NCBI RefSeq assembly: GCF_017068395.1
Contig: NZ_CP070619.1
Location: 4,588,001 to 4,652,000, forward strand
Origin: Rhodococcus pseudokoreensis
GTDB lineage: Bacteria > Actinomycetota > Actinomycetes > Mycobacteriales > Mycobacteriaceae
DNA: 64,000 nucleotides
Reading direction: 5' to 3'
Below, in pieces: positions 32,190-63,839 of this stretch. Made by a program: the position numbers and the translations under genes. Positions within the stretch are counted from its first letter, which is position 1. The number at the start of each line of letters is the position of its first letter. Below the pieces are notes generated by a model that made no database searches, was not told the origin of the DNA, and saw nothing but the letters and a program-made list of their open reading frames with translations.

Positions 32190-32460
32190 TTCGTGTCGTA
32201 CTGATCGCGGCCGCGGTGGTCGCGTGCTGATCGCTGCCGCGTGGGTGCTGCAGCGAAAACTGATCTACTTCCCCGACACCACTCCGGTGCCGCCCGCCGG
32301 CAGGGTTATCGCCGGGGCGGAGGACGTCACGCTGGGGCTGGCACTCGACGTCCGGGCCGGCCGCCGGCACCTCGTCGACGAGCGTCGCGTGCCGCCGGAG
32401 CGGCTGCTCTACTTCGGGGAGAGCCTCGGCACCGGCGATCTGGCGCTCCGCGCCCCGTGA
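32186..32460 (+). pseudogene. Remnant of an alpha/beta-hydrolase membrane-anchored protein
   Basis: ATG 32186 overlaps the PHP-gene stop. The first frame reads MIRVVLIAAAVVAC then stops at 32228. The next frame continues the same anchor sequence (LIAAAWVLQRKLIYFPDTTPVPPAG), so about one base has been lost near 32225. After GAEDVTL the text jumps to RRHLVDERRVPPERLLYFGESLG, which in alpha/beta-hydrolases of this type lies about 80-100 residues later, around the nucleophile elbow. The serine motif is GESLG and the catalytic Asp/His part is gone. It reads as an internally deleted, frameshifted and truncated gene ending in a repeat element. Confidence 0.75.
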
Positions 32461-32510
32461 GTGGTTAACGAGTCTCTGGACTCGCCCGCCACGCACGGGC
32501 GCGTCAGCGC
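32442..32510. repeat. Triple-hairpin palindromic element, copy 1
   Basis: Left hairpin GGCGC-TCC-GCGCC (32442-32454), central palindrome 32454-32499 with GAGTC-TCTG-GACTC at its tip, right hairpin GCGC-GTCA-GCGC (32499-32510). The hydrolase-remnant stop (32458-32460) and the lutC stop (32504-32506, other strand) both lie inside. It probably works as a bidirectional terminator. Confidence 0.8.
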
Positions 32511-33115
32511 ACGATCACGACGTCCAGCGTCCGGGGACCGTGCACGCCTTCGACGCGGTTGAGTTCGATGTCGCTGGTGGCGCTGGGACCGCTGATGAAC
32601 GTCAGCGGTGCGGTCGGGTCGAGCGTCTGGAAGGCCTGCGGCACGGTGTCGACGATCTGGTCGGTGCGCACGATGCAGATGTGATGGTCCGGGACCAGGG
32701 TCAGCGCCCGCCGGCCCTGACCTGCGCCGCCGTCGAGCACGATGGTCCCGGTGGCGGCGATCCCGAGGGTGCAGCCGGTGACGACCACGTCGATGGCGTC
32801 GAGTTCGAGCGTCGACAGTTCGGCGGGTGCGCGGTCGACGACGACGTCACCGCGCGGTCGCCACGACTGCGGAAGGTCCGGTGGGACGACGGCCCGCTTC
32901 CCCTCCGCGATCAGTCCGGTGACGATCTCGACGACGGTGGTCTCGTCGGCGCGGTGGACCTGTGCGCGGTAGTCGTCGACGGTGTGCGCGAACAACTCGA
33001 CGTCGCCGGGGCCGGACGCCGGCTCGCGGTGGTAGTCGCGGGGAACGGGTTCGGGGGCCGGCGCGTCGGCGATTGCTGACCGGATCCGGGACAGTATCTC
33101 TGCGCGTGCGGTCAT
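32504..33115 (-). CDS. lutC: Lactate utilization protein C (LUD domain)
   Basis: 203-aa LutC/YkgG protein with one LUD domain, third gene of lutABC. Characteristic segments are VVVTGCTLGIAATGTIVLDGG and ALTLVPDHHICIVRTDQIVDTVPQAF, then FISGPSATSDIELNRVEGVHGP near the C-terminus. LutABC together oxidise L-lactate to pyruvate in the cytosol; LutC's own chemistry is not well defined. ATG 33115 overlaps the lutB stop by 4 nt. The stop codon lies in the loop of the right hairpin of repeat copy 1. Confidence 0.93.
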   Translation of the reverse strand: MTARAEILSRIRSAIADAPAPEPVPRDYHREPASGPGDVELFAHTVDDYRAQVHRADETTVVEIVTGLIAEGKRAVVPPDLPQSWRPRGDVVVDRAPAELSTLELDAIDVVVTGCTLGIAATGTIVLDGGAGQGRRALTLVPDHHICIVRTDQIVDTVPQAFQTLDPTAPLTFISGPSATSDIELNRVEGVHGPRTLDVVIVR

Positions 33116-34593
33116 CGTGTCGTGTCCTCGTGAGTGCGGGCCCACCATTGTCGGAACGTCTCCTTCGGCGGGGCGGGCAGGTCGCGGCTCGCGGTCCATT
33201 TCGACGCCGGGTACGGCAGCGACGTGATGCGTCCGGACCGGCCGCCCAGCACCCGGCCGACCTTGGCCGCCGTCTCGGCGGCGGCGAACCGTTTCTCCGA
33301 CCCCATCACGAAGCCGGCGGCCTTCATCGCGAGGTCCTGGCCGCCCGGCAGTCCGTGCCGTTCGGAGTCGACCTGTTCCGCGCGCAGGTGCACGAGAATG
33401 CTGGGGATGTCGATGCGCACGGGGCAGGCGTCGAAGCAGGCGCCGCACAGGGTGGACGCGTAGGGCAGTGACGCGTTCGGGTCGTCGTGGCCGGTGGTCC
33501 CGGTGAGTTGCGGGCTGAGGATCGCGCCGATCGGCCCGGGGTAGACCGACCCGTACGCGTGCCCGCCCGCCCGCTCGTACACGGGGCACACGTTCAGGCA
33601 GGCGCTGCAGCGGATGCAGTGCAGCGCGGACCGCCCGGTCTCGTCCGCGAGGACGTTGGTGCGACCGTTGTCGAGGAGGACGACGTGGAAGTTCTGCGGA
33701 CCGTCGCCGGGGTGCACCCCGGTCCACATGGAGGTGTACGGGTTCATCCGCTCGGCGGTGGACGACCGCGGCAGCAGTTGCATGAACACCTCGAGGTCGG
33801 TGAACGTGGGGACCAGTTTCTCGATGCCCATGAGGGTGATGAGCGTGTCGGGGAGGGTGAGGCACATCCGTCCGTTGCCCTCCGATTCCACCACCGCGAG
33901 GGTTCCGGTCTCCGCGACCCCGAAGTTCGCACCGCTGATCGCGACCTTGGCGGACAGGAACTTTCGACGCAGGTGTGCCCGCGCGGCCATCGCCAGCGCC
34001 CGGGGGTCGTCGGTGATGTCCTTGTCGACGCCCGGCATCGCGTTCAGGAAGATCTCCCGGATTTCGGCGCGGTTGCGGTGGATGGCGGGCACCAGGATGT
34101 GGCTCGGTTTGTCCTCGCCGAGTTGGACGATGAGTTCGGCGAGGTCGGTTTCGATCGCCGCGATCCCGTTCTCCTCGAGATGCTCGTTGAGGCCCGTCTC
34201 CTGCGTGGCCATCGACTTGACCTTCACCACCTCGTCGGAGCCGGTGGCCCGGACGAGGTCGGTGATGATCCGGTTCGCCTCGTCCGCGTCGCGTGCCCAG
34301 TGGACGGTGCCGCCGCGGGCGGTGACGTTCTCCTCGAACTGCACGAGCAGTTCGGGGAGCCGGGCCATCACGTCCGCCTTCAGGGCGCTGCCGGCCCGTC
34401 GCAGTTCCTCCCAGTCGTCGACCTCGGCGACCGCGGCGATCCGCTTGTTGCGGATGGTGGTGGTGGCGGCGCCGAGGTTGGCGCGCAGCTGGGTGTCGGT
34501 GAGCGCCTTCCGGGCCGCGTCAGGGAAAGATTCTGTGCCCCGGATGTTTCCGGTGCCCGGGTGGAAGGTGGGTGAGCCGAGGAAAGTGGTCAT
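33112..34593 (-). CDS. lutB: Lactate utilization iron-sulfur protein B
   Basis: 493-aa LutB. The N-terminal LUD domain (to about 300) includes VVKVKSMATQETGLNEHLE and ANFGVAETGTLAVVESEGNGR. Two 4Fe-4S motifs follow: CIRCSACLNVC (C326, C329, C332, C336) and CGACFDACPV about 55 residues later. The C-terminal DUF3390-type tail ends in FRQWWARTHED. It carries electrons in the LutABC lactate oxidase complex. Start ATG 34593 overlaps the lutA stop (ATGA). Confidence 0.95.
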   Translation of the reverse strand: MTTFLGSPTFHPGTGNIRGTESFPDAARKALTDTQLRANLGAATTTIRNKRIAAVAEVDDWEELRRAGSALKADVMARLPELLVQFEENVTARGGTVHWARDADEANRIITDLVRATGSDEVVKVKSMATQETGLNEHLEENGIAAIETDLAELIVQLGEDKPSHILVPAIHRNRAEIREIFLNAMPGVDKDITDDPRALAMAARAHLRRKFLSAKVAISGANFGVAETGTLAVVESEGNGRMCLTLPDTLITLMGIEKLVPTFTDLEVFMQLLPRSSTAERMNPYTSMWTGVHPGDGPQNFHVVLLDNGRTNVLADETGRSALHCIRCSACLNVCPVYERAGGHAYGSVYPGPIGAILSPQLTGTTGHDDPNASLPYASTLCGACFDACPVRIDIPSILVHLRAEQVDSERHGLPGGQDLAMKAAGFVMGSEKRFAAAETAAKVGRVLGGRSGRITSLPYPASKWTASRDLPAPPKETFRQWWARTHEDTTR

Positions 34594-35345: not shown

Positions 35346-35368
35346 CGGGTACTCCAACCGGGCTGGGC

Positions 35369-35383: not shown

Positions 35384-35392
35384 GTAGCGCAC

Positions 35393-35407: not shown

Positions 35408-35424
35408 CCAGGTAAACTTCGGTC

Positions 35425-36120
35425 GTGCGCACACACGAGGTCGTCCTGCACCGCATCGAGCAGGATCTGGCGGCCGGCAAACTCACCGTCGGCGGTCGTC
35501 TGCCCGCCGAGCGCGCACTGGCCGAGGAACTGGGCGTCGGACGCTCGTCCGTCCGCGAGGCCATGCGGGTGCTCGAGGCGATGGGCATCGTCCGCACCGC
35601 CGTCGGCTCCGGGCCGGACGCGGGCGCGATCGTCGCCGCCGACCCGGCCGCGTCGATCGGCGCGGCCCTGCGACTGCACATGGCGACGCGCACCCTGCCG
35701 ATCCGCGACGTCGTCCAGACACGCACGCTGCTCGAGTCGTGGGCGGTGCAGGAGGCCGCCGGGCAGTCCGGTGACCTGGACTTCTCGGCCATCGACGCGC
35801 TGCTCGACGCGATGGACGACGAAGACCTCTCCCCGGAGGCGTTCCACCGCCTCGACGCCGACCTGCACGTCGCGATGGCCGGACTCGCCGGAAACGTCCT
35901 CGTCGAGGCGATGATGGTCTCGCTCCGCGACTCCATCCACGGCTACGTCATCCAGGCGGTTCCGCTGCTCGACGACTGGCCCGCGGTCGCGACCCACCTC
36001 CGCTGCGAGCACCGCGGTATCGTCGCCGCCCTCCGCGCCGGACGCGGCGTCGAGGCCGCCGGTCTGGTGCGCGAGCACATCGAGGGGTTCTACGGGCGCT
36101 TCGCGCCCGTGCGTGGGTAA
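35425..36120 (+). CDS. GntR/FadR-family repressor of the lut operon (LldR-like)
   Basis: 231-aa GntR regulator. The winged helix-turn-helix (about 5-70) reads RLPAERALAEELGVGRSSVREAMRVLEAMGIV. The C-terminal FCD ligand domain has metal-ligand features (DLHVAMAGLAGN, CEHRGIVAALRAG, REHIEGFYGRF). Divergent from lutABC with two perfect operators between, so a lactate-responsive repressor is the natural reading. GTG start. The last residues (GRFAPVRG) and the TAA stop are encoded by repeat copy 2, so the C-terminus has been set by that element. Confidence 0.93.
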   Translation: MRTHEVVLHRIEQDLAAGKLTVGGRLPAERALAEELGVGRSSVREAMRVLEAMGIVRTAVGSGPDAGAIVAADPAASIGAALRLHMATRTLPIRDVVQTRTLLESWAVQEAAGQSGDLDFSAIDALLDAMDDEDLSPEAFHRLDADLHVAMAGLAGNVLVEAMMVSLRDSIHGYVIQAVPLLDDWPAVATHLRCEHRGIVAALRAGRGVEAAGLVREHIEGFYGRFAPVRG

Positions 36121-36163
36121 GGAGTCCCTGGACTCGTCAACCGCTCACGGGGCGGTACGCCCC
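36094..36163. repeat. Triple-hairpin palindromic element, copy 2
   Basis: Left hairpin GGGCGC-TTC-GCGCCC (36094-36108), central palindrome to 36151 with GAGTC-CCTG-GACTC, right hairpin GGGGCG-GTA-CGCCCC (36149-36163). Both convergent genes end inside it: the LldR-like protein in APVRG-stop and the GntR protein in RPVSG-stop, the two arms encoding nearly the same tail on opposite strands. Confidence 0.85.
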
Positions 36164-36850
36164 CAGGATCTGCGCCTCGGCGTCTTCGAGGTACGTCTTG
36201 AGTAGCTGACCTGCGGCTTCGGTGTTGCCGGCGACGAGAGCGTCGTAGATCTCGTGGTTACGGGTGAGGTACGGCCCGTGGAAGCGGTGGGCGTCGTCCA
36301 TGACGTGGAAGACGAGCCGCGCCTCGTTCCACACGCTGCGCATGAGTTCGTCGATGCGGTTGCTCTTGTTGAGGCTGGCGAGGGCGATGTGGAAGTAGAT
36401 GTCGGCGGTGCCGACGCCGGTCCAGTCCTCGACGGCGAACCGCTCGTCGGCCAGGTTGAGGGCCTCGGCGACGCCGGACAGGTCGCCGGTCTCGGGGTCG
36501 AATCCGTTGACGCCGGCGCATTCGACGACGCGCCGGCAGATGTAGAGCTCGGTGATGTCCTCGGCGGTGGGCACGCGGACGAAGACGCCGCGGTTGAGTT
36601 CGTGCGCGACGAGGCGGTCTTCGATGAGGATCTGGAAGGCCTCGCGGACGGTGTTGCGGGAGACGTCGAGGGCGGCGCAGATGTCGGGTTCGGACAGTCG
36701 CGCCCCTGGTTGGAACGTTCCGTCGATGATGGCGTCCCGCAGAATGCCGGCGACCCGGGTAGTCCTGCTGGTGCGTTCGAGCAGGCCGCGGTGAGCGGCC
36801 AGGCGGGAATGCGCATCGCCGCGAAGGGCATTCGAGCTGGTCAAGTCCAC
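36137..36850 (-). CDS. GntR-family regulator (FCD domain) of the 5-oxoproline/glutamate operon
   Basis: 237-aa GntR regulator. DNA-binding domain at about 27-95 (GARLSEPDICAALDVSRNTVREAFQILIEDRLV), FCD effector domain after that (DIYFHIALASLNKSNRI, RNHEIYDALVAGN). Divergent from the MFS-cyclase-pxp-gdh operon, so it probably controls that operon in response to D-glutamate, 5-oxoproline or a related acid. A candidate site is at 36942-36952. The GTG at 36850 has its purine-rich site only 1 nt away; TTG at 36844 has AGGAG at a 5-nt spacing and may be the true start. The end is encoded by repeat copy 2. Confidence 0.9.
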   Translation of the reverse strand: MDLTSSNALRGDAHSRLAAHRGLLERTSRTTRVAGILRDAIIDGTFQPGARLSEPDICAALDVSRNTVREAFQILIEDRLVAHELNRGVFVRVPTAEDITELYICRRVVECAGVNGFDPETGDLSGVAEALNLADERFAVEDWTGVGTADIYFHIALASLNKSNRIDELMRSVWNEARLVFHVMDDAHRFHGPYLTRNHEIYDALVAGNTEAAGQLLKTYLEDAEAQILGAYRPVSG

Positions 36851-44300: not shown

Positions 44301-44747
44301 GGCGCGGACGCCGGGATCGCCGCGGACGTCGCGGATCTCCTGCACACGTACTGCCTCCTCGACATCGTGGACATCGCGGAGATCTCCCAGCACCGCGCGG
44401 AGGACGTCGCCGAACTGTATTTCGCGCTGTCGGCGCACCTGCACATCAACACCGCGCTGACCGCCGTCACGGCGCTGCCGCGACTGGACCGGTGGCACGC
44501 CCTCGCCCGCCTCGCCCTGCGCGACGACCTCTACAGTTCGCTGCGCGCCATCACCCTCGACGCGCTGTCCGTCAGCGAACCCGGCGACGACGCTGCCGAC
44601 AAGGTCGACCAGTGGGAGCAGCACAACGCCGCCCGGCTCGCCCGCGCGCGGGCACTGCTCACCGAGATCGAGTCGGAGGTCGCCACCGCACCCACGCTGG
44701 CGCTGATCTCCGTCGCGGCCAGGCGGATCCGGGCGATGACGCGGTAG
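41355..44747 (+). CDS. Large NAD-dependent glutamate dehydrogenase (short form)
   Basis: 1130-aa NAD-specific glutamate dehydrogenase of the GDH-180-like family, which deaminates glutamate to 2-oxoglutarate. The catalytic core at about 310-365 has EGVHLRFDDVARGGLRWSDR and VKAQAVKNAVIVPAGAKGGF; VAADKGTAAFSDVAN, GDMSGDVFGNGML and VVGEGGNLGLTQLGR follow, with a C-terminal helical domain. The usual proteins are about 1600 aa; the N-terminal ~450-500 residues with ACT-like regulatory domains are absent, so allosteric control may differ. ATG with AGGAGA upstream, 42 bp after pxpC. The TAG stop is the first codon of repeat copy 3. Confidence 0.92.
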   Translation: MNSIGTELDTPWSHESWRNTLLAEPHRQGTAVARHYASALPISYATETDPAQAIRDVAEVERLDVDSVALTFTTTEASAPYENLKIYAVGKPAPLNEVLPILSSLGVNALDERPAALTRPDGSRAWIYDLTVDLPAVTDGHGTTRDGRIADAFRAAWTGETEVDGFNALVLHAGLGWRQVTVLRAYAAYLRQAGLPYSRSNVERVLLGNTGITQLLVELHALRLDPALARDAAAEDALEDRISAAIDAVAGIDADRILRALLSLIRATTRTTYYAGDPRPGRALAFKFDSSSIDELPLPRPKYEAYVYSPQMEGVHLRFDDVARGGLRWSDRRDDFRTEILGLVKAQAVKNAVIVPAGAKGGFVVKNPPAPTGDAAADREAMLAAGISCYREFISSLLDMTDNLDIATRHVIAPDGIVRRDGDDTYLVVAADKGTAAFSDVANAVALERGYWLGDGFASGGSVGYDHKAMGITARGAWESVVQHFREMGVDTRTDDFTVVGIGDMSGDVFGNGMLLSPHIRLVAAFDHRHVFIDPDPDPQTSWDERARLFGLGRSSWKDYDRAVLSEGAMIVDRAAKSVRLTPQARRALGIDTDRALTTVELVRAVLAAPADLLWNGGVGTYVKATSESHADVGDKSNDAVRLDAPALRVRVVGEGGNLGLTQLGRIEHARNGGRVNTDALDNSAGVDCSDHEVNIKIALAGATADNTLTAQDRRELLSDMTEDVSRLVLADNRSQNEMMSLNRAQAATLVSFHSRMVDDLERRGHVDRAIDVLPTSAQFGALEREQKGLTSPELAQLTAQVKRFIKSEVSGTTLPDNKVYAGRLHDYFPPRLGREYAHTVAVHPLRREIVTTSVVNDMVDRAGMTFAFRLREETGADSAEAVNAFTAVTEIFDLGATFERIRAAAASTPASGTNALTVQTQRLIDRASRWLTTHRPQPLPLEATIARYRPVVRELGPRVREWLQGDEITAVEGRTGALTSRGADAGIAADVADLLHTYCLLDIVDIAEISQHRAEDVAELYFALSAHLHINTALTAVTALPRLDRWHALARLALRDDLYSSLRAITLDALSVSEPGDDAADKVDQWEQHNAARLARARALLTEIESEVATAPTLALISVAARRIRAMTR

Positions 44748-44820
44748 GCGGCTCCGCCGCCCGTGCGTGCTTAAGGAGTCTCTGGACTCGTCAACCACGC
44801 ACGGGCCGCGTAGCGGCCTA
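44745..44820. repeat. Triple-hairpin palindromic element, copy 3
   Basis: Left hairpin GGCGGC-TCC-GCCGCC (44747-44761), central palindrome 44760-44805 with GAGTC-TCTG-GACTC, right hairpin GGCCGC-GTA-GCGGCC (44804-44818). It begins with the TAG stop of the dehydrogenase and ends with the CTA (TAG on the other strand) of the ABC ATPase. It lies between convergent genes. Confidence 0.87.
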
Positions 44821-45543
44821 CAGTACCTGCGACAGGAACTGCTGCAGCCGTTCGGTTTCGGGCTTGTCGAACAGCTGGCCCGGTGTGCCGGTTTCGACGA
44901 CGGCGCCGTGGTCCATGAACAGCACGGTGTCGGACACCTCGCGGGCGAAGCCCATTTCGTGGGTGACGACGACCATCGTCATGCCACCCTTGGCGAGGTC
45001 GGCCATCAGGGCGAGCACGCCTTTCACCAGTTCGGGGTCGAGTGCGGACGTGGCCTCGTCGAAGAACATCACTTCGGGTTTCATCGCGAGGGCGCGGGCG
45101 ATCGCGACGCGCTGCTGCTGCCCGCCGGACAGGTTGCCGGGGCGTGAGTCGGCCTTGTTGGCGAGGCCGACGAGTTCGAGTTGCTCGAGCGCCACCGACC
45201 GAGCCTCGTCCTTCGACATGCCCTTGAGCTTGCGGGGGCCGAGGGCGATGTTGTCGACGACGGTCTTGTGCGGGAACAGGTTGAAGTGCTGGAACACCAT
45301 GCCGATGCGCTGCCGCAGCTTGTCGGGGTTGTCCTGCAGCACGGACTTGCCGTCGAGGAGGACGTCGCCCTGGTCGGGTTCGTGCAGCCGGTTGAGGACC
45401 CGCAGCAGGGTGGACTTGCCGGAGCCGGACGGCCCGATGACGGTGACGGTGTCGCCGGCGTCGACGTGGAGGTCGACGCCGCGCAGCACCTGGTTGGCGC
45501 CGAACGCGAGGTGCAGGTTGGTTCCAGTGAGAGAGACGGCCAT
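44818..45543 (-). CDS. Polar amino-acid ABC transporter ATP-binding protein
   Basis: 241-aa GlnQ/GluA-type ATPase. Walker [11 protein letters not shown] (37-46), Q-loop [18 protein letters not shown], signature LSGGQQQR, Walker [13 protein letters not shown] and the H-loop [10 protein letters not shown]. It energises the transporter encoded 4 bp upstream (binding protein/permease fusion). Polar amino-acid importers of this type carry glutamate, glutamine or similar. The stop lies at the edge of repeat copy 3. Convergence on a glutamate-forming operon fits glutamate-family uptake, but specificity is inferred. Confidence 0.94.
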
Positions 45544-45547
45544 CGCC

Positions 45548-48149: not shown

Positions 48150-49655
48150 ATGAACATTGTTCGCGTATTCGACAGCAACGTCCGCAAGACGCCCGACAAG
48201 GCGTTTCTCCACTTCCAGGGCCGAAACCATACGTATGGTTCCGTGCAGGACGGCAGCCGCCACGCCGCGGCACTCCTGCGGAAACTGGGAGTCGGGCGCG
48301 GTGACCGCGTCGCCCTCATGTGTTTCAACACCCCCGGCTTCGTCTACGCCATGCTCGGCGCCTGGCGCATCGGCGCGGTGGTGGTGCCGGTCAACCACAA
48401 GATGCAGGCGCCCGAGGTCGACTACGTCCTGCGGCACGCGCACGTGCAGGTGTGCGTCTTCGACGGCGAACTCGCGCCCGTGATCGAGCGGTTGCAGACG
48501 TCGGTGGTGCTGCTGTCCACCGACACCGCGGTGGACGGATACCCGTTCTTCGACGACGCGATCGCCGACCTCGATCCGATCGACGGCATCGACGTCGACG
48601 AGAACGACCCGGCCGAGATCCTCTACACGTCCGGCACCACCGGCGCGCCCAAGGGCTGCGTGCACAGCCACCGCAACGTCGTGCGCGTCGCAACCACGGC
48701 GGCGCTCGGGCTGTCCATCACCCGCGACGAGCGGCTGCTGATGGCCGTCCCGATCTGGCACGCGTCCCCGCTGAACAACTGGCTGATGGCCGCGCTGTAC
48801 ATGGGCGGCACCGTGGTGCTCGTGCGCGAGTATCACCCCGTCCAATTTCTGGAAGCGGTTCAGCAGCAACGCATCACGCTGTGCTTCGGGCCGCCGGTCA
48901 TCTACACCACGGCACTGAACGCGGTCCCCGACTTCGCCGCCTACGACCTGTCCAGTGTCCGGGCCTGGCTGTACGGCGGCGGGCCGATCGGCGCGGACGT
49001 GGCCCGCAGGCTCGTCGAGTCGTACCGGACCACCCGCTTCTACCAGGTGTACGGGATGACGGAGACCGGTCCCGTCGGGGCCGTGCTGTACCCGGAAGAG
49101 CAACTGACCAAGGCCGGCTCCATCGGCCGGGTCGCGCTCGCCGGCGTCGACATGCGCCTGGCCGGACCCGGCGGCGCCGACGTGCCCGCCGGGGGGATCG
49201 GCGAGATCTGGGTGCGCACCGACACCGTGATGCTGGGCTACCTCGACGACCCCGACGCCACCGCGGCCGCCTTCGCCGACGGCGGCTGGTACCGCACGGG
49301 CGATCTCGCCCGCACGGACGACGACGGCTACCTCTTCATCGTCGACCGCGCGAAAGACATGATCATCACCGGCGGTGAGAACGTCTATTCCAAGGAAGTG
49401 GAGGACGCGATCTCCGGCCACCCCGACGTCGTCGACGTCGCCGTCGTGGGACGCCCGCACCCCGAGTGGGGCGAGACCGTCGTCGCGCACGTCGTGTGGC
49501 GGGAACCGGACGTCGTGGGAGCCGACGACCTCCGCGACTATCTGTCGGACAAGCTGGCGCGCTACAAGATTCCCCGCGACTACGTGTTCGCCACCGTGCT
49601 GCCCCGCACCCCCACCGGCAAGATCCAGAAGCACCTGATCCGCACCGCGAGCTGA
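48150..49655 (+). CDS. AMP-dependent acyl-CoA synthetase
   Basis: 501-aa adenylate-forming acyl-CoA ligase of the medium/short-chain FadD type. A3 motif LYTSGTTGAPKG (about 157-168), YGMTETGPVG, YRTGDLARTDDDGYLFIVDRAKDMIITGGENV (hinge) and the catalytic lysine region PTGKIQKHLIR at the C-terminus. It forms acyl-CoA for the dehydrogenase that follows 18 bp later. AAGGAGCG precedes the ATG. Substrate not identifiable. Confidence 0.93.
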   Translation: MNIVRVFDSNVRKTPDKAFLHFQGRNHTYGSVQDGSRHAAALLRKLGVGRGDRVALMCFNTPGFVYAMLGAWRIGAVVVPVNHKMQAPEVDYVLRHAHVQVCVFDGELAPVIERLQTSVVLLSTDTAVDGYPFFDDAIADLDPIDGIDVDENDPAEILYTSGTTGAPKGCVHSHRNVVRVATTAALGLSITRDERLLMAVPIWHASPLNNWLMAALYMGGTVVLVREYHPVQFLEAVQQQRITLCFGPPVIYTTALNAVPDFAAYDLSSVRAWLYGGGPIGADVARRLVESYRTTRFYQVYGMTETGPVGAVLYPEEQLTKAGSIGRVALAGVDMRLAGPGGADVPAGGIGEIWVRTDTVMLGYLDDPDATAAAFADGGWYRTGDLARTDDDGYLFIVDRAKDMIITGGENVYSKEVEDAISGHPDVVDVAVVGRPHPEWGETVVAHVVWREPDVVGADDLRDYLSDKLARYKIPRDYVFATVLPRTPTGKIQKHLIRTAS

Positions 49656-49673: not shown

Positions 49674-51365
49674 ATGACTACCTTCTCCGACACGAACGTC
49701 ACCCATCCCGCACCCCACCGGACACACACCGTGCTCAACCAGTCGGTGCCCCGCACCGACGTCAACGAGTTCACGCTCGACACGGTGCTGTCCGAGGCCG
49801 TGCGCCGCCACGACGCCGACTGGGCCACTGCGGAACTCACCGATATCGGGGAGCTCGTCGGCAGCGCCACGTTCCAGCACGACGCCGAACTCGCCAACTC
49901 GATCATCCCCGAACTGAAGACGTTCGACCGCTGGGGCAACCGGATCGACGAGGTCGAGTACCACCCGTCCTACCACCGGATCATCTCCGCGGCCGTCGCA
50001 CACGGCGCGCACACGTCCGCGTGGGCCGATCCGAAACCCGGCGCAAACGTCGCTCGCGCAGCCGCATTCATGCTGTTCGCGCAGATCGAGCCGGGCCACT
50101 CGTGCCCGATCTCGATGACCAACGCCGTCATCCCCTCCCTCGAACTGCAACCCGACGTCGCCGCGATCTGGAAGCCGCGTGCCCTGTCCCGCAGCTACAC
50201 CCCGGAACTCGACGCACCGGGCAAGGCGTCCGCGATCTTCGGCATGTCGATGACGGAGAAGCAGGGCGGCTCCGACGTCCGCGCCAACACTACCGTCGCG
50301 AAACCCGCGGGTCGCGGCGGTCCCGGCGCCGACTACCTGCTCACCGGCCACAAGTGGTTCTGCTCCGCGCCGATGTCCGACGCGTTCCTCGTGCTCGCGC
50401 AGGCGGAAGGTGCGGGCGGCGAGGGACTCTCGTGCTTCCTGCTGCCGCGCATTCTCCCGGACGGCACCCGCAACGTCTTCCGCATCCAGCGGCTGAAGAA
50501 CAAGCTCGGCAACAAGTCCAACGCGTCGTCCGAGATCGAACTCGACGGTACCGTCGGCGTCATGGTCGGTGAACCCGGTCGCGGGGTCCGCACCATCATC
50601 GAGATGGTCGCGCGCACCCGGCTCGACTGCGTGCTCGGCAGCGCGTCGGGGATGCGGCAGTCCGTCGCCGAGGCCGTGTGGCACGCCCGGCACCGTGCCG
50701 CGTTCGGTACCGTCCTGGCCGATCAGCCCGCCATGACGTCGGTGCTCGCCGACCTCGCGATCGAGTCCGAGGCGGCCACCGTCACCGCGCTGCGACTCGC
50801 CCGCGCTCACGACGACGACGCCGGTGAGCAGGAACGCAGCTTCCGCCGGCTCGCGACCGCCGTCGCGAAGTACTGGATCTGCAAACGCGGCCCGCACCAC
50901 GCCTACGAGGCGCTGGAATGCCTGGGCGGCAACGGATACACCGAAGACTTCCCGCTCGCCCGCCGCTACCGCGAACAGCCCGTCATGGCCGTCTGGGAGG
51001 GGTCGGGGAACGTCATCGCCCTCGACGTCCTGCGCGCGATGACCCGCGAACCCGACAGCGTCGCCGCGTTCGACGCCGAGGTGAACCTGGCCCGCGGCGC
51101 CAACACCGTGCTGGACGCGCACCTCGACCGAGTTCGCACTCAGCTCGGCGACCTCGCCGGACTCGACCCCGCCGACGCCCAGCGCCGCGCCCGGACCGTC
51201 GTCGAATCGATGGCCCTCGCGCTGCAGGCGTCGCTGCTCACCCGGTTCTCGCCCGCCGCGGTCGCGGACTGTTTCGTCGACGCCCGCCTCGGCCCCGACC
51301 GCAGCCACGAATACGGCACCCTCTCCCCGGCCGCCGACCTGCAGGCGATCCTGCATCGCGCGTAG
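49674..51365 (+). CDS. AidB-like acyl-CoA dehydrogenase
   Basis: 563-aa flavoprotein of the AidB/acyl-CoA dehydrogenase group, longer than ordinary acyl-CoA dehydrogenases (about 390 aa). It has HTVLNQSVP at the N-terminus, GMSMTEKQGGSDVRANTT (flavin region), YLLTGHKWFCSAPMSDAFLVLAQ, LGNKSNASSEIELDG and ALECLGGNGYTEDFPLARRYREQPVMAVWEGSGNV. E. coli AidB is a DNA-binding alkylation-response flavoprotein, but here pairing with an acyl-CoA ligase points to acyl-CoA oxidation. The TAG stop is the first codon of repeat copy 4. Confidence 0.92.
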   Translation: MTTFSDTNVTHPAPHRTHTVLNQSVPRTDVNEFTLDTVLSEAVRRHDADWATAELTDIGELVGSATFQHDAELANSIIPELKTFDRWGNRIDEVEYHPSYHRIISAAVAHGAHTSAWADPKPGANVARAAAFMLFAQIEPGHSCPISMTNAVIPSLELQPDVAAIWKPRALSRSYTPELDAPGKASAIFGMSMTEKQGGSDVRANTTVAKPAGRGGPGADYLLTGHKWFCSAPMSDAFLVLAQAEGAGGEGLSCFLLPRILPDGTRNVFRIQRLKNKLGNKSNASSEIELDGTVGVMVGEPGRGVRTIIEMVARTRLDCVLGSASGMRQSVAEAVWHARHRAAFGTVLADQPAMTSVLADLAIESEAATVTALRLARAHDDDAGEQERSFRRLATAVAKYWICKRGPHHAYEALECLGGNGYTEDFPLARRYREQPVMAVWEGSGNVIALDVLRAMTREPDSVAAFDAEVNLARGANTVLDAHLDRVRTQLGDLAGLDPADAQRRARTVVESMALALQASLLTRFSPAAVADCFVDARLGPDRSHEYGTLSPAADLQAILHRA

Positions 51366-51438
51366 GCGGCTCCGCCGCCCGTGCGTGGTTAACGAGTCCA
51401 GAGACTCCTTTCCCACGCACAGGCGGCGAAGCCGCCTA
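51363..51438. repeat. Triple-hairpin palindromic element, copy 4
   Basis: Left hairpin GGCGGC-TCC-GCCGCC (51365-51379), central palindrome with GAGTC-CAGA-GACTC (tip inverted relative to copies 1-3 and 5), right hairpin GGCGGC-GAA-GCCGCC (51422-51436). The two ends are TAG stop codons of the convergent neighbours. This is the most symmetrical copy (76 bp). Confidence 0.87.
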
Positions 51439-52749
51439 CCGCAGGACCGTCGGGCCCAGGAACTCGCACACCTGCAGGGCGAGTGCGAGATCCAGTTTGC
51501 TGTGTGTGCCGGTGGCCGGGTCGCCGAGTGCCTTGGTGATGCGGTATTTGACGGTGTTGCGGTGCAGGTTCATCTGCTGAGCGGTGTGGAGGTGGCTCTC
51601 GCCGGTCGCGAAGTAGGTGCTCAGCGTGGCCCTCAGGGTCGCGGCCTGGTCGGTGTTCTCGGCGAGCGGGCCGAGGACCTCCCACACCCATGCCCGGGTG
51701 GAGTCCAGGTTCTCGGCGAGGAGGGACACGACGGCGACGCCGCGGTCGCCGAAACCGACGATCGGCCGGACCTGGGTGTGGGGCACGGTGGCGACGGAGT
51801 AGGCGGCCCGCGCCTGTTCGTGCGACCGCCGGAATCCGGCGACCCCGGGCGCGGGCAGGCCGATCGCGCTCCGGATGCCTGGCTTCGACGGCAGGGCGGC
51901 GGCGAGTTCGGTGGTGTCGAGGACGGGTTTGCGTCGACCGAAAGGCAGCCAGGCCCAAAGTGTTCGGCGGTCGATGGCGGTGACGATGGGCGCCGAGTCG
52001 GTGACGAGGTGGCGGGCCAGGTCGCGCACATAGTGGTCGAGTGCGTTGAGGCTCGCCTCGGTGTCGGCGCCGGTGGACCAGAGGATCATCGCGACGTGCG
52101 TCTGGTCGAGCCGGTACTGCGTCTCGGCCTCGAACGCGGACCCGTCGGAGCCGGTCCCGGTGAGGAGGGTGTGGATGGTCGACGAGTGCACATTGCCGCG
52201 GGCGCCCAGCCACCGCCGGCGTTCCTGCTCGTAGGCGTCGAACACGTACAGCGTGATCCAGTCGATGTAGCTGTACACGACCTCCGAAATATGTTTGAGC
52301 ACAGCGAGGGTCAGCGGTCCGGGCAGGTCGAGGGCGCTGACCTCGTCGTAGCAGATCTTCATCAGATCGTCCTGGCCCATGTGATACGCGCGCACCAGCG
52401 AATTCGACGACACGTCGCGTTGCGCCAGCCGCAGCGCGTACTCCACGGCGGCGGTGGTGGGCTGGAGATGGTCGACGGGAATGTCGTTGGCCAGGACGTG
52501 GACGATCGTCGAGACGTTGCCGTGGACACTGGCCTCGAGCAGTTCGACGAGTTGCGGGTCCTCGTCGAGTTGGTCGATCTCGTGCGCGAGCAGCGCACTC
52601 ATCGCGCGGGTGATCTCCGCCTGCCGCACATCGAGTTTCCGTGCGATGCCGGCCACGATGTCGAGGACCTCGGTCTCCGCCATCGCCGGCACCCGCGCCA
52701 TCCGGCGGCGGGCGCCGGCGCGGCGGTCGCCGGGGGCGGGACTGCTCAC
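51436..52749 (-). CDS. CdaR/PucR-type transcriptional regulator
   Basis: 437-aa regulator. The N-terminal part (about 20-170) resembles the RsbRD-like sensor region found in actinobacterial PucR relatives (SNSLVRAYHMGQDDLMKIC). A central CdaR GGDEF-like domain and a C-terminal PucR helix-turn-helix (TAQQMNLHRNTVKYRITKALG at about 390-412) follow. It lacks the N-terminal purine domain seen in the regulator at 15790. GTG 52749 overlaps the oxidoreductase stop (GTGA), so it is the last gene of the operon it probably regulates. The stop is in repeat copy 4. Confidence 0.88.
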   Translation of the reverse strand: MSSPAPGDRRAGARRRMARVPAMAETEVLDIVAGIARKLDVRQAEITRAMSALLAHEIDQLDEDPQLVELLEASVHGNVSTIVHVLANDIPVDHLQPTTAAVEYALRLAQRDVSSNSLVRAYHMGQDDLMKICYDEVSALDLPGPLTLAVLKHISEVVYSYIDWITLYVFDAYEQERRRWLGARGNVHSSTIHTLLTGTGSDGSAFEAETQYRLDQTHVAMILWSTGADTEASLNALDHYVRDLARHLVTDSAPIVTAIDRRTLWAWLPFGRRKPVLDTTELAAALPSKPGIRSAIGLPAPGVAGFRRSHEQARAAYSVATVPHTQVRPIVGFGDRGVAVVSLLAENLDSTRAWVWEVLGPLAENTDQAATLRATLSTYFATGESHLHTAQQMNLHRNTVKYRITKALGDPATGTHSKLDLALALQVCEFLGPTVLR

Positions 52750-56050: not shown

Positions 56051-57517
56051 TCAGTTGACGGCGGCGGGCCGGTGACGGCTGCGCAGACCGGGCTTGTCGA
56101 TCTTGCCGACGGGGTTCCGGGGCAGCGCCTCGACGATGTGAATGGCCACGGGCAGTTTGACCTTCGTCAGTCGGTCGCGCAGATGCTCGTCGAGCTGATC
56201 GTCGGTGACCGGGCTGTCGGGGTAGGCGACGACGTAGGCGACCGGGACCTCGCCGTACACCTCGTGCGGGGCGCCGATCACGGCCGCCTCGAGGACGTCG
56301 TCGTGGGTGGCGAGGGCGTTCTCGATCTCCTTGGGATAGATGTTCTCCCCGCCGCGGATGATCATGTCCTTGATGCGGTCGACGAGGGTGAGATAGCCGT
56401 CCTCGTCGAGGCGTCCGACGTCGCCGGTGTGCAGCCAGCCGTCGACGACGGTGCGTTCGGTTTCCTCGGGCCGTCCGAGGTAGCCGCGCATCACGTTCGC
56501 ACCCCGGATCACCACCTCGCCGACGGTCCCCACCGGTGCCGGCGCGCCGGACTCGTCGACGATCGCGATGGTCTGACCCGCCAGCGCGGGGCCGACCGTG
56601 CCCAGCTTGCGGACACCGCCCGGCGGATTGCACGCCGACGCGCACGTCCCCTCGGTCAGCCCGTAGCCCTCGACGATGACGAGCCCGAAACGCTGCTCGG
56701 CGCGGTCGAGGAGTTCCTTCGAGATCGGCGCGGCCCCGCACACCGCGAACCGCAGCGACGAGAGGTCGGTGGCGGCGTCCTGGGAAACCAGCAGCGCGTA
56801 GATGGTCGGGACCGCGGAGAAGTACGTCGGGCGCAGGCGGGCGACGTCGTCGAAGAACCGGGCCGGGGAGAAGCGTCCGGTGACGCTCAGCTGACCGCCG
56901 GCCAGCATCGGAGCAAGGAAGCTGACGCAGATCGCGTTGACGTGGAACAGCGGCAGGATCAGCAGGCAGTGGTCGTCGGTGGTGAGCGAGAAGTGCTGCA
57001 CCATCGACGAACTCATGAACTGCAGGTTCTCGTGGGTGAGCATCACGCCCTTGGGGCGCCCGGTCGAACCGGACGTGTAGATCAGCAGGGCGACGTCGTC
57101 TGCGCCGGCGGTCGGGCCCGGCGCCCACTTCGGGTCGGGGGTGGTCGCCATGTCGTCGACGGCGATCGCCTGCCGGCCGCCGGTGGGCGCGTCCGGTCCC
57201 TCGCTGACGACGAGTACTGCGGCGGCGTCCGCGATCTGATACTCGGCCTCCGTCGCGGTGAAGGTGGGATTGACCGGGGTCGCGGCCGCCCCGATCCGCC
57301 AGGCCGCCATGAGGGCGACGAGCAGTTCGGCGCGGTTGGGCAGCATGATCGCGAGAACGTCACCGCGACCGACACCGTGCCCGGACAACTGCGCGGCGAA
57401 CGCGTCGACCCGCTGCGCGAACTGCCGGTAGGTCAGGTCGAGGCGGTCGTCGCGCAGGCACGGCGCATCTGCGCGCTGCGCGGCGAGGTCCCAAGCGAAA
57501 TAGCCGATGTGCGACAC
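56051..57517 (-). CDS. Acyl-CoA synthetase (class I adenylate-forming)
   Basis: 488-aa acyl-CoA ligase. It has LLIYTSGSTGRPKGVMLTHEN (A3, about 144-162), EGYGLTEGTCASACN, GWLHTGDVGRLDEDGYLTLVDRIKDMIIRGGENIYPKEIE (hinge) and LPRNPVGKIDKPGLR (catalytic lysine). First gene of the operon with DUF3556, the oxidoreductase and the CdaR regulator. GTG start at 57517. It is divergent from the thiolase gene across a 255-bp region with a dyad operator, so the two may be co-regulated. Confidence 0.92.
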   Translation of the reverse strand: MSHIGYFAWDLAAQRADAPCLRDDRLDLTYRQFAQRVDAFAAQLSGHGVGRGDVLAIMLPNRAELLVALMAAWRIGAAATPVNPTFTATEAEYQIADAAAVLVVSEGPDAPTGGRQAIAVDDMATTPDPKWAPGPTAGADDVALLIYTSGSTGRPKGVMLTHENLQFMSSSMVQHFSLTTDDHCLLILPLFHVNAICVSFLAPMLAGGQLSVTGRFSPARFFDDVARLRPTYFSAVPTIYALLVSQDAATDLSSLRFAVCGAAPISKELLDRAEQRFGLVIVEGYGLTEGTCASACNPPGGVRKLGTVGPALAGQTIAIVDESGAPAPVGTVGEVVIRGANVMRGYLGRPEETERTVVDGWLHTGDVGRLDEDGYLTLVDRIKDMIIRGGENIYPKEIENALATHDDVLEAAVIGAPHEVYGEVPVAYVVAYPDSPVTDDQLDEHLRDRLTKVKLPVAIHIVEALPRNPVGKIDKPGLRSRHRPAAVN

Positions 57518-57772: not shown

Positions 57773-58987
57773 ATGCCCGAGGCCGTCATCGTTTCCATTG
57801 CCCGTTCCCCGATCGGTCGCGCCATGAAGGGGTCGCTGGTCGGCATGCGCCCGGACGACCTCGCCGCGCAGATGGTGCAGGCGGCCCTCGACAAGGTGCC
57901 CGCGCTCGACCCGACCGACGTCAACGACCTCATCCTCGGCTGCGGTCTGCCCGGCGGTGAGCAGGGATTCAACATGGGCCGCAACGTCGCCGTCCAGCTC
58001 GGGTACGACTTCATCCCCGGCACCACCATCACCCGATACTGTTCTTCGTCGCTACAGACCACCCGCATGGCGCTGCACGCGATCAAGGCCGGGGAGGGTG
58101 ACGTGTTCATCTCCGCCGGCGTCGAGACGGTCTCCCGGTTCGTGAAGGGCAACTCCGATTCGCTGCCCGACACCCAGAACCCGCTCTACGCGGACGCGCA
58201 GACCCGTACCGAGAAGCTCGCCCAGGGCGGTCAGCGGTGGGTCGACCCCCGCGAGGAGGGCCTGGTCCCCGACACCTACATCGCGATGGGCCAGACCGCC
58301 GAGAACGTCGCCCAGGTCACCGGCATCACCCGCGAGGAGCAGGACCGCTGGGCGGTGCGCTCGCAGAACCGCGCCGAGGAGGCCATCAAGAGCGGCTTCT
58401 TCGCACGCGAGATCACCCCGGTCACCCTCCCCGACGGCACTGTCGTCAGCACCGACGACGGTCCCCGTGCGGGCACCACCTACGAGGCCGTGTCCCAGCT
58501 CAAGCCGGTGTTCCGCCCGGACGGCACCGTGACCGCTGGCAACGCGTGCCCGCTCAACGACGGCGCCGCCGCCCTGGTCATCATGTCCGACACCAAGGCC
58601 AAGGAACTCGGGCTGACTCCGCTCGCCCGGATCGTGTCCACCGGGGTGTCCGGTCTGTCGCCGGAGATCATGGGCCTCGGCCCGATCGAGGCGTCCAAGC
58701 GTGCCCTCGCGATCGCGGGGCTGGGCATCTCCGACATCGACCTCGTCGAGATCAACGAGGCGTTCGCGGTGCAGGTGATCGGGTCGGCGCGGGAGCTGAA
58801 CATCGACGAGGACAAGCTGAACGTCTCCGGCGGCGCGATCGCCCTCGGTCACCCGTTCGGCATGACCGGTGCCCGCATCACCGCCACCCTGCTCAACAAC
58901 CTCACCACCCACGACAAGCAGTTCGGCCTCGAAACCATGTGCGTCGGAGGCGGTCAGGGCATGGCGATGGTCCTCGAGCGGCTGTAG
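57773..58987 (+). CDS. Acetyl-CoA acetyltransferase (thiolase)
   Basis: 404-aa thiolase of the degradative/biosynthetic acetyl-CoA C-acyltransferase type. Nucleophile C90 in TRYCSSSLQ, NGGAIALGHPFGMTGAR-type segment SGGAIALGHPFGMTGAR with the catalytic histidine, and the second cysteine in MCVGGGQGMAM near the C-terminus. It cleaves 3-oxoacyl-CoA or condenses acetyl-CoA. The AT-rich dyad upstream is its likely control region. The TAG stop is the first codon of repeat copy 5. Confidence 0.95.
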   Translation: MPEAVIVSIARSPIGRAMKGSLVGMRPDDLAAQMVQAALDKVPALDPTDVNDLILGCGLPGGEQGFNMGRNVAVQLGYDFIPGTTITRYCSSSLQTTRMALHAIKAGEGDVFISAGVETVSRFVKGNSDSLPDTQNPLYADAQTRTEKLAQGGQRWVDPREEGLVPDTYIAMGQTAENVAQVTGITREEQDRWAVRSQNRAEEAIKSGFFAREITPVTLPDGTVVSTDDGPRAGTTYEAVSQLKPVFRPDGTVTAGNACPLNDGAAALVIMSDTKAKELGLTPLARIVSTGVSGLSPEIMGLGPIEASKRALAIAGLGISDIDLVEINEAFAVQVIGSARELNIDEDKLNVSGGAIALGHPFGMTGARITATLLNNLTTHDKQFGLETMCVGGGQGMAMVLERL

Positions 58988-59058
58988 GCGGCTCCGCCGC
59001 CCGTGCGTGGTTGAGGAGTCTCTGGACTCGCTAACCGCGCACGAGCGCGAAGCGCCTA
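58985..59058. repeat. Triple-hairpin palindromic element, copy 5
   Basis: Left hairpin GGCGGC-TCC-GCCGCC (58987-59001), central palindrome with GAGTC-TCTG-GACTC, right hairpin GCGC-GAA-GCGC (59045-59055). Begins with the TAG stop of the thiolase and ends with the CTA (TAG) of the convergent LLM oxidoreductase. Confidence 0.86.
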
Positions 59059-60423: not shown

Positions 60424-60429
60424 CGGTCC

Positions 60430-61769: not shown

Positions 61770-61770
61770 C

Positions 61771-61844
61771 AGGGCAGGCTATCGCCCTGTGCGTGCTTAG
61801 CGAGTCCAGGCACTCGTCAACCACGCACGGGCGCGAAGCGCCTA
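61771..61844. repeat. Triple-hairpin palindromic element, copy 6
   Basis: Left hairpin AGGGC/GCCCT with an 8-nt loop (61771-61788), central palindrome 61786-61831 with GAGTC-CAGG-CACTC, right hairpin GGCGC-GAA-GCGCC (61830-61842). Contains the TAG stop of the siderophore-binding gene. This is the only copy between tandem genes: it follows one gene and precedes the start of the next on the same strand. Confidence 0.82.
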
Positions 61845-62810
61845 CAGCCGCTCGAGGTCGTCGAGGATCAGGTTTGCGCCGGTAAGCCCGATGCCGGTGA
61901 TCCACACCCGGTAGTCGGTCTGGCGGACGCCGTCGCGTCGGGACGGTCCCATCTGCCCGACGAGGACGGGGTCGATGCCCAGGTCACCGGGTCCGGCGGT
62001 GTTGGCGACGAACGCGATGTCGGAGTCGATCTGGGCGACGTTCTCGAGCGAGATCTCGGACATGTCGTTCTTCGCGTCCCACGGCTGCCCGGTGATGATG
62101 TAGCCGGCGGCGGTCAGCACCGAACCCGAGAACGTGCCGGGACCGTGGAGGCGCAGTCCGTCGTCCATCACACGGATGACGTGTGCGGTGCGGCCGCGGG
62201 TGGTCTCGCTGAGCGCGGCGGCGCGGGCGTGGAATTCCGACAGTTTCTGCTCGGCGGCCTGCGTTTCGCCCATGGCCTCGGCGAACAGCCGCAGCGTCCC
62301 CTGCCAGTCGACGGCGGGCGACACGGAGAAGACGGTGGGCGCGATTGCCGACAGTGCGTTGTACAGGTCGCCGTGCCGCTGCTTGCTGCTGAGGATGAGG
62401 TCGGGTTGCAGCGCGGCGATGGCCTCGAGGTTCGGTTCGGCGATCGACCCGACGACGGTGGTGCTGTCCAGTCCGCCGCCGAGGTAGGCGGGCAGCGCGT
62501 CGGCGGAACCGGCCTGAGCCGCGCCGACCGGGGTCTTTCCGAGGGTGACGACGGTGTCGATGGGCAGGCTGTCGAGGGCGACGATGCGGCTGGGCCGGTT
62601 GCTCACCGTCGTCGTCCCCATGGCGTGGGTGACCGTCCGCTGCCCGCCGCTGTCGCCGGCCGACGCCGCCTCGGGTCCCGCGCACGCAGCGGTGAACGTG
62701 GCCAGCGCTGCTGCGCCCAGCCCGGCGCCGAACTGTCGTCGCGTGAGGGCGTCGACGATCTCCTGCCATTGGACGTCGGTGACATTCGGGGAGCACGTGG
62801 TTGAACGCAT
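61842..62810 (-). CDS. Iron-siderophore ABC transporter substrate-binding protein (FecB-like)
   Basis: 322-aa periplasmic-binding protein of the FecB/FepB type. The N-terminus has a twin-arginine-like TRRQFGAGLGAAALATFTAACAG with a lipobox cysteine, so it should be an exported lipoprotein. The mature part has the ferric-siderophore domain RIVALDSLPIDTVVTLGKTPVGA, NLEAIAALQPDLILSS and GRTAHVIRVMDDG. No permease or ATPase genes are adjacent. An IdeR-like box at 62841-62859 lies upstream, so iron repression is expected. The stop is in repeat copy 6. Confidence 0.92.
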   Translation of the reverse strand: MRSTTCSPNVTDVQWQEIVDALTRRQFGAGLGAAALATFTAACAGPEAASAGDSGGQRTVTHAMGTTTVSNRPSRIVALDSLPIDTVVTLGKTPVGAAQAGSADALPAYLGGGLDSTTVVGSIAEPNLEAIAALQPDLILSSKQRHGDLYNALSAIAPTVFSVSPAVDWQGTLRLFAEAMGETQAAEQKLSEFHARAAALSETTRGRTAHVIRVMDDGLRLHGPGTFSGSVLTAAGYIITGQPWDAKNDMSEISLENVAQIDSDIAFVANTAGPGDLGIDPVLVGQMGPSRRDGVRQTDYRVWITGIGLTGANLILDDLERL

Positions 62811-62840
62811 CCTGGACCTCGATCTCGAAGGGGGAAGAAG

Positions 62841-62859
62841 ATAGGTGAACCTAACCTTA
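62841..62859. promoter_or_regulatory. IdeR/DmdR-type iron box
   Basis: ATAGGTGAACCTAACCTTA matches the actinobacterial IdeR/DmdR consensus TTAGGTTAGGCTAACCTAA at 14 of 19 positions. It is placed between the divergent siderophore-binding gene (start 62810) and the sucrase/ferredoxin-like gene (start 62872), so both would be repressed by iron. Confidence 0.75.
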
Positions 62860-62871
62860 TACAGTTCGGGT

Positions 62872-63795
62872 GTGAGTGTGCTGACGACGACGCCGCCCGA
62901 GGGGTGGACGCCACCGGCCTGCGCGGCGCTCTCCCAGTCACTGCAGGAGCCGTTGTGCGGCACCGCACCCCGGGTGCGCGGATGGCTGCTGATCGAGCAA
63001 CCCGGACCGTGGGGACGCGACCGACTGCGGCAGAGCCGTCTCGACCCGGTCCTCGGTGACGCGCTCGCCGCCCGGTGCGCCGACGCCGGAGTGCGTCCGG
63101 TGCTGATCCGCACCCGGCAGCGCCGTGACCTCGCGGCCGGACGGCACGTCTATCTCACCCGGCCGGGCCGCGATGACGGCTGGGCCGAGCGACTGCTGGT
63201 GCGCGAGGACCGGGAACTGCTCGACCTGGACCTCACCGTCGACGCGCCACCCGGGCTCGGTGAGCGTCTCGACGCCACCGAATCACTGTTCCTGGTCTGC
63301 ACCCACGGCAAGAAGGACGCCTGCTGCGCGTCGTTCGGACGCCCCGTGGTCACCGGCCTCGGCCATCGCGGTGGCCGGGTCTGGGAGTCGACGCACGTTG
63401 GCGGCGACCGGTTCGCCGCGACCATGGTGTGCCTGCCGTCCGGCATCTATTACGGGAGGGTCACGGCGGAGGCGGCGGAACGCATTGTCGCCGAGCACGA
63501 TCGCGGACGGGTCGTGCTCGAGCACTACCGCGGCCGGTGCACCGACGACCCGGTGCTGCAGTTCGCCGAGCACACTGTCCGGACGGAGCGGGCGCTGCCC
63601 GGACTCGACGACGTGATCCCGCTGTCGGCGGTCCCACGGCCGGACGGTGACACGGACGTCCTGGTCAGGCACGCCGGCGGCATCGACCGGGTACATGTCC
63701 GCACGACCCGCGCCGAACCCCGGCTGACCGCCTGCAGCGCCGGTGTCGTGGACAGCCCGGACCGGTTCGAGAAGGCTCCGCCCGTGCGCGCTTGA
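62872..63795 (+). CDS. Sucrase/ferredoxin-like family protein
   Basis: 307-aa protein of the sucrase/ferredoxin-like family (thioredoxin-like [2Fe-2S] ferredoxin fold). Conserved segments are CTHGKKDACCASFGRPV (about 142-158, four-residue cysteine cluster) and ESTHVGGDRFAATMVCLPSGIYYGRV. The N-terminal half has GTAPRVRGWLLIEQPGPWG. Its place beside a siderophore-binding gene and behind an iron box suggests a role in iron-siderophore reduction. GTG 62872 chosen because the upstream GTG at 62845 lies in the iron box. The last residues (PPVRA) and TGA stop come from repeat copy 7. Confidence 0.87.
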   Translation: MSVLTTTPPEGWTPPACAALSQSLQEPLCGTAPRVRGWLLIEQPGPWGRDRLRQSRLDPVLGDALAARCADAGVRPVLIRTRQRRDLAAGRHVYLTRPGRDDGWAERLLVREDRELLDLDLTVDAPPGLGERLDATESLFLVCTHGKKDACCASFGRPVVTGLGHRGGRVWESTHVGGDRFAATMVCLPSGIYYGRVTAEAAERIVAEHDRGRVVLEHYRGRCTDDPVLQFAEHTVRTERALPGLDDVIPLSAVPRPDGDTDVLVRHAGGIDRVHVRTTRAEPRLTACSAGVVDSPDRFEKAPPVRA

Positions 63796-63839
63796 CGAGT
63801 CCAGAGACTCCTTTCCCACGCACGGGGCGCGAAGCGCCC
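63774..63839. repeat. Triple-hairpin palindromic element, copy 7
   Basis: Left hairpin GGC-TCC-GCC (63774-63782), central palindrome 63781-63826 with GAGTC-CAGA-GACTC (inverted tip, as in copy 4), right hairpin GGGCGC-GAA-GCGCCC (63825-63839). The stop codon of the sucrase/ferredoxin-like gene (63793-63795) lies in the left arm. Confidence 0.84.

Follow-up and report, generated by a model that had tools for sequence, protein, structure and literature searches.

The 64,000-nt stretch of Rhodococcus pseudokoreensis DNA analyzed here (contig NZ_CP070619.1, positions 4,588,001–4,652,000; hereafter the window) carries seven copies of an element in which a central palindrome of 40 nt, with GTG at one end and CAC at the other, is flanked by a left and a right GC hairpin. 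The element lies at the 3′ ends of genes and contains their stop codons. When orthologous gene ends were compared among related genomes, the central palindrome (the tip) was found to be exchanged between unrelated sequence classes and in some cases inverted, with no detectable transfer of flanking DNA. We propose, with somewhat more confidence than doubt, that the element is a two-way gene-end hairpin with built-in stop codons whose centre is exchanged between dispersed copies by very short-tract copying. What appears to be new is the wholesale exchange and occasional inversion of a central palindrome at conserved gene ends, a reading well supported by the sequence comparisons. Our literature search found no description of central-palindrome exchange in repeats of the repetitive extragenic palindrome (REP) kind, and no paper on the Rhodococcus element, even when its sequence was used for the search.

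The element lies at gene 3′ ends and supplies their stop codons

The window belongs to contig C6, which accounts for 8.73 Mb of the 9.87-Mb genome (labeled G000). A 40-nt pattern of the window tips (type A), with up to three mismatches allowed, occurred at 79 places in G000 and at none for a reversed-pattern control; thus, the element is not a product of chance. We listed 77 places from this pattern and a covariance model, which was built from 17 copies and whose best 150 candidates were scored. All of the type A places listed are on C6.

To read the flanks, we judged the coding frame of 300 nt to either side of each copy by codon-position GC content, a heuristic whose signal is weak at some flanks. 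By this reading, 126 of the 154 flanks of the 77 copies are gene 3′ ends (p = 4.8e-16 against 50%). Convergent genes face each other across 50 of the copies; 26 copies are at a single 3′ end, and one separates two 5′ ends. The stop codon is inside the element at 121 of these 126 ends. Stops fall at a small set of fixed offsets, in which all three frames are represented. The commonest is the TAG of the outer foot, at −18 and −16 from the GTG; most of the rest are TGA at +1, some stop at +9, TAA at +29 or TAG at −8. At the inner stop position, 117 of the 154 arms have TAA, TGA or TAG. TGG is rare there, being present in 2 of the 119 G000 arms that have TAA, TAG, TGA or TGG (Fisher p = 0.0005), in 1 of 85 in the relative G006 and in 0 of 39 in the relative G009, genomes that share sites. 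The inner stop codons appear to be maintained. For a copy on a plasmid of R. opacus PD630, the deposited annotation has each of the two facing genes end at one edge; inside a copy on an R. oxybenzonivorans plasmid one annotated gene ends, and the next gene runs in the same direction (tandem).

An earlier note on this DNA, made from the sequence alone, had taken the element for a dispersed terminator that replaces gene ends. The first part stands to the extent that the element is dispersed, forms hairpins, sits at gene ends, carries stop codons in G000 and recurs in the genus. Replacement of gene ends is the exception: 86 of the 98 ends compared between G000 and G006 keep their stop position, with ends of weak coding signal or poor anchors excluded and two of the 98 belonging to the site at 36109, which is centre-less in G006. 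One of the changed ends is at the copy at 36094.

The central palindrome is exchanged at orthologous gene ends

Across nine congeners with syntenic stretches, orthologous gene ends have either a type A centre or one of an unrelated type B (CCTTTYTGGT...ACCARAAAGG), and the outer hairpins and stops are mostly kept where the class differs. Elements and adjoining DNA were taken from two relatives, G009 and G006, the latter being the nearest to G000 among the ten genomes of the tree. Sites were paired on the basis of their flanks, for which median identity is 96.4% (G000–G006), 94.8% (G000–G009) and 94.6% (G006–G009). At the 77 type A sites of G000, the G006 junctions comprised 46 A, 17 B, one without a centre, five long inserts and eight not found; the G009 junctions comprised 16 A, 31 B, one long and 29 not found. 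Type B therefore occupies 17 of 63 comparable sites in G006 and 31 of 47 in G009, fractions that omit the long junctions (such as L105, where a type B centre adjoins the left flank in G006). Sites with short junctions in all three genomes were, in the order G000, G006 and G009, AAA at 15, AAB at 14, ABB at 12 and ABA at one.

No trace of these changes was detectable in the flanks. In successive 12-nt bins outward from the element, G000–G006 identity was 0.934, 0.949 and 0.973 at the 17 swapped sites and 0.925, 0.934 and 0.944 at the 46 unswapped ones. Because swapped sites resemble unswapped ones from the first bin, no measurable flank has been transferred. At site L073/L316, 35 nt on each side are identical, while the 30 nt between them are of different class. 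Such data bear on the idea that the swaps reflect ordinary homologous recombination with DNA of other Rhodococcus strains bearing the other tip. Tip classes are indeed common to several species, which counts in its favor, but import of a tip together with its flanks is disfavored by the equal flank identity, and unusual outer hairpins were retained at some swapped sites (such as L084 and L089), though an outer hairpin changed too at L060, L072 and L086. We regard ordinary recombination as highly improbable.

The stops persisted through most exchanges. At B-swapped sites (G000/G006), the stop position is kept at 21 of 25 ends, made up of 20 of 22 outer stops and 1 of 3 tip stops, and the two lost tip stops give way to a TAG within the B tip. 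Of 13 scored sites at which G000 carries A and G006 carries B, 12 are B in G009. This suggests a change from B to A on the G000 branch, a provisional direction as the sites were picked as A in G000. A tree of four window genes groups the type B genome G008 with the type A genomes G005 and G026 (support 1.00) and places G009 (B) with G000 and G006 only weakly (0.65). Tip class at the window sites is at odds with this tree and seems to have changed more than once.

Within class B, the tips of the 16 B pairs of G006 and G009 were no more alike than random B tips (p = 0.49). Inversion was evident at the site of a thiolase gene in the window, where 7 of the 15 pairs among six genomes matched better by at least 0.1 when one tip was inverted, all of them G000 or G026 against the other four; none of 15 pairs did so at the 61767 site.

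Distribution of the element and its tip classes

The element is real and genus-wide. The covariance model gave matches at E 1e-4 in 25 of 28 Rhodococcus genomes, so further copies exist, and the 40-nt type A pattern is present in 22 of the 28. No match outside G000 was obtained among 150 genomes of the order, for which the best 31 candidates per genome were scored under stricter filters. A plasmid search returned six matching records, every one from Rhodococcus; thus, the element is not chromosome-only in the genus. Phage sequences gave no match, no Rfam family scored above its gathering score in the window, and a tRNA search of the window found none.

Abundance of the classes differs among genomes: type A counts are 79 in G000, 26 in G009 and 20 in G027, and counts of a B half-pattern on the two strands are 8 and 13, 50 and 54, and 57 and 49, respectively. 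Such figures would be expected if the tip were the binding site of lineage-specific DNA-binding proteins and switched class en masse with the protein, like the dialects of DNA uptake sequences. The tip families are near 40 nt, within the lengths that the search patterns made visible, and Neisseria uptake sequences are reported in terminators (PMC3630211). Against a switch with the protein, the B half-pattern is also present in 18 of the 22 genomes that have the A pattern. A protein-site origin of the class differences seems to us very unlikely.

Two more 40-nt palindromes, C and D, are found at gene ends, with outer hairpins less frequent than in type A (4 of 14 D arms in G000, 19 of 38 D arms and 1 of 14 C arms in G006). 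The type D palindrome, GTGAGTACTTGTTAACC...GGTTAACAAGTACTCAC, is very common on the G000 chromosome, mostly at gene ends (e.g. L371, L372, L374 and L375). Of 114 palindrome places, the 50 listed, which cover the first 3.6 Mb of the contig, were, by inspection, 31 D, 18 A and one B, and were of one length throughout, though the pattern allowed 44 to 49 letters. Families A, B, C and D are unrelated in sequence yet all about 40 nt, lengths visible to us being limited by the search patterns. The few C and D orthologs found in G006 had no class swap: C stays C at 4 of 4 sites and D stays D at 3 of 4, the remaining one having no centre.

Copies in the window and the genes that end in them

All seven copies described in the earlier note were found at the coordinates it gave. 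They are listed below in window positions, together with one related hairpin; none is assigned a strand.

28904..28943, type C hairpin of another tip family at a gene end, 40 nt like the type A centres
32442..32512, copy 1, type A centre 32457–32496; a weakly coding plus-strand frame stops at TGA inside the centre
36094..36165, copy 2, type A centre 36109–36148; two GntR/FCD regulator genes stop inside the centre (TAA, TGA)
44745..44821, copy 3, type A centre 44763–44802; genes for an NAD-glutamate dehydrogenase and an ABC ATPase stop at the two TAG edges
51363..51439, copy 4, type A centre 51381–51420; genes for an AidB-like acyl-CoA dehydrogenase and a PucR-like regulator stop at TAG edges
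58985..59058, copy 5, type A centre 59003–59042; thiolase and luciferase-like genes stop at TAG edges
61771..61845, copy 6, type A centre 61789–61828; a periplasmic-binding-protein gene stops at the right TAG
63774..63840, copy 7, type A centre 63784–63823; a Suc_Fer-like gene stops at TGA inside the centre

The same note had counted eleven intact genes and one remnant ending inside the copies, often at TAG, and we recovered 11 coding-like frames (at least 200 codons, stop to stop) and a weak frame at 32457. Stops of the frames ending in copies are TAG in seven, TGA in three and TAA in one, compared with 29 TGA, 4 TAG and 2 TAA in the 35 other coding-like frames of the window (7 of 11 versus 4 of 35 TAG; Fisher p = 0.0014). 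Its observation that the first 32 kb lack the element is true of the type A family, the type C hairpin at 28904–28943 being present there. No ortholog of this hairpin was found in the comparison with relatives.

In copy 1, the right part holds the TGA stop of a minus-strand LUD-domain gene. The left flank of copy 6 reads as a gene 5′ end, and no gene end was found to the right of copy 7. The plus-strand gene of copy 2 stops earlier, at a TAG, in G006, G009 and G027; the G006 counterpart (L250) has shrunk to one short hairpin, and the last residues of the gene product differ from those in G000. Copy 2/L250 is a clear case of a changed gene end. In place of the single copy 4, G006 has a pair of type B elements, separated by about 2.4 kb that includes extra DNA. 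The centre of copy 5 is type B in G006, G008, G009 and G027. Pfam matches of the glutamate dehydrogenase and the thiolase extend to the profile ends, indicating that the element there is at normal gene ends and that the two proteins are not truncated. A scan of named genomes with the NAD-glutamate dehydrogenase yielded 80 loci at about 50–55% identity, which were left out of the comparisons. A thiolase paralog at C6:1415512–1416804 of G000, 82% identical to that of the window, likewise ends at its own type A element (L078). The window also has a 222-nt inverted repeat (49274–49495 and 56229–56450; 72% complementary), which probably represents paralogous coding domains.

Pairing and folding

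The earlier note held that pairing is preserved although stem sequences differ between copies. For the outer stems this is so by eye. The central stem did not bear it out: over the 77 type A copies (75 distinct), 87.0% of positions were paired, compared with 86.3% in 500 column shuffles, of which 30 reached the observed pairing and 35 the covariation score. Slid controls were 27–45% paired. The central palindrome thus shows little covariation beyond column make-up. Unpaired columns among the 75 copies include columns 11–16 (in 17–33 copies), column 7 (23) and column 21 (27), and one pair near the base of the centre is coupled, C-G against A-T (Fisher p = 0.0014). As for the three hairpins proposed, the lowest-energy RNA fold was one long hairpin in all five type A window folds (four copies); folds of eight sequences had z of −12.8 to −2.4.

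Relation to REP dimers

The outer hairpins resemble a head-to-head dimer of GTAG REPs, and the element is REP-dimer-like. An outer hairpin with a stem of at least 4 is found in 131 of the 154 arms, and NTAG lies near its foot in 84 of the 131, as GTAG in 54 of those 84. The commonest feet end in GTA, with the last G of the motif usually paired in the stem. GTAG REPs themselves are palindromes of 20–40 bp whose GTAG foot is unpaired, and their transposase cuts the single-stranded hairpin at GTAG. Published GTAG REPs are described as lying mainly between convergent and unidirectional genes, with ends that often supply a TAG stop; spacers in their head-to-head dimers are mostly conserved and fall into several types, whose abundance differs between related species (PMC3733652). 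The gene-end location and the donation of stops are already known in kind from GTAG REPs.

In common with GTAG-REP dimers, bacterial interspersed mosaic elements (BIMEs) and REP doublets forming hairpins (REPINs), the Rhodococcus element has short GC hairpins, many with a GTAG-like foot, in opposite orientation, in many copies mainly at gene 3′ ends, and it shares with the dimers of PMC3733652 a TAG that is the stop of flanking genes and coexisting spacer types of species-dependent abundance. It differs in its host, actinobacterial terms and six actinobacterial genera going unmentioned in the main text of that survey; in the pairing of the last G; and in a spacer that is a 40-nt palindrome, swapped and sometimes flipped at orthologous sites. 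It differs also in lacking a cognate REP-associated tyrosine transposase (RAYT) in G000: the REP-transposase domain PF01797 (Y1_Tnp) had no match in G000 or in the copy-rich genomes G010, G024, G026 and G027, although it had matches in 11 of the 28 genus genomes, G006 among them. We therefore rejected a REP transposase as the present driver in G000. Published REPs also occur without a cognate RAYT (PMC3733652; PMC3686654).

The element might instead be a selfish family of the GTAG-REP/REPIN kind without a gene-end function, spread by a RAYT that is now lost, so that its location would reflect harmless insertion and its TAG stops would be by-products. The frequency of NTAG and GTAG feet and the shared habits of published GTAG REPs fit such a history, as does the fact that the common sequence of the copies exceeds the needs of a hairpin. 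The distribution of PF01797 fits it less well, as do the swapping of tips while feet, stops and hairpins persist and the apparent maintenance of inner stop codons. We hold a purely selfish family to be rather unlikely.

A comparable turnover is the REP 'orthoswitch' of Pseudomonas and Stenotrophomonas, in which one REP class partly yields to another over time. There, however, the new class spreads with its RAYT and old copies decay in place (PMC3686654), whereas in Rhodococcus the centre changes inside retained copies.

Discussion

Our proposal starts from a build in the style of a REP dimer: a 40-nt palindromic spacer between two outer GC hairpins, each with its (G)TAG foot pointing outward. 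At the 3′ ends of mostly convergent genes, the element supplies their stops, usually through the foot TAG and otherwise through a stop in the tip. Transcription from either strand would yield a strong RNA hairpin that most likely makes or protects both mRNA 3′ ends and blocks read-through; from sequence, a two-way role at RNA 3′ ends is likely. Mainly the hairpin and the stop codon would matter, which would leave the tip free to be replaced: dispersed A and B copies would trade tips, and a tip would occasionally be flipped, in steps that do not reach beyond the element. The most likely route is microhomology-guided template switching or very short-tract conversion. Template-switch mutations are known to invert loops and correct arms inside hairpins (PMC8794818), but they act within one hairpin, whereas an A-to-B swap requires a second copy as template.

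Several points weigh against this proposal. The sites were picked as type A in G000 and the loci of relatives mostly by model matches, so that losses and B-to-B sites are under-counted. Tip turnover appears incomplete, as orthologous A tips are more alike (mean 0.89 for G000/G006 and 0.88 for G000/G009) than random A pairs (0.79). Inversions are few: tips matched better when reverse-complemented in 2 of 46 A pairs of G000/G006, 0 of 16 A pairs of G000/G009 and 1 of 16 B pairs of G006/G009. A stop lies in the tip at 3 of 17 swapped and 18 of 46 unswapped sites, a difference that is not significant (p = 0.14). With covariation across copies as weak as described above, the sequence is no proof of an RNA role. 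Lastly, of the 154 arms, none has a uridine tract (U-tract; 5 T in 8 nt) directly behind the centre and 5 have one past the element, so that of the sequence marks of a canonical Rho-independent terminator the GC hairpin is present and the U-tract is not. GC-rich bacteria have I-shaped terminators, which are strong hairpins without a U-tract. The element is like these intrinsic terminators (term from PMC8914203) in that respect; it differs in consisting of repeated sequence families with internal stops and an exchangeable centre.

A further possibility is a dedicated process, working on DNA in single-stranded or cruciform form, that would recognize the GTGMG/CKCAC base and exchange or flip the 40-nt tip as one cassette, leaving its neighbors untouched. 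We think this unlikely; if true, whole genomes would drift between tip classes while their genes keep their stop codons.

These closely related Rhodococcus genomes catch a sequence change in a REP-like repeat half-way: gene ends are shared, outer hairpins and stops mostly so, and yet the centre is unrelated. They offer dozens of matched sites for asking which feature of such a hairpin counts at a gene end and how a 40-nt stretch can be substituted while its neighbors stay intact. Orthologous 3′ regions can thus differ completely without loss of the gene end.

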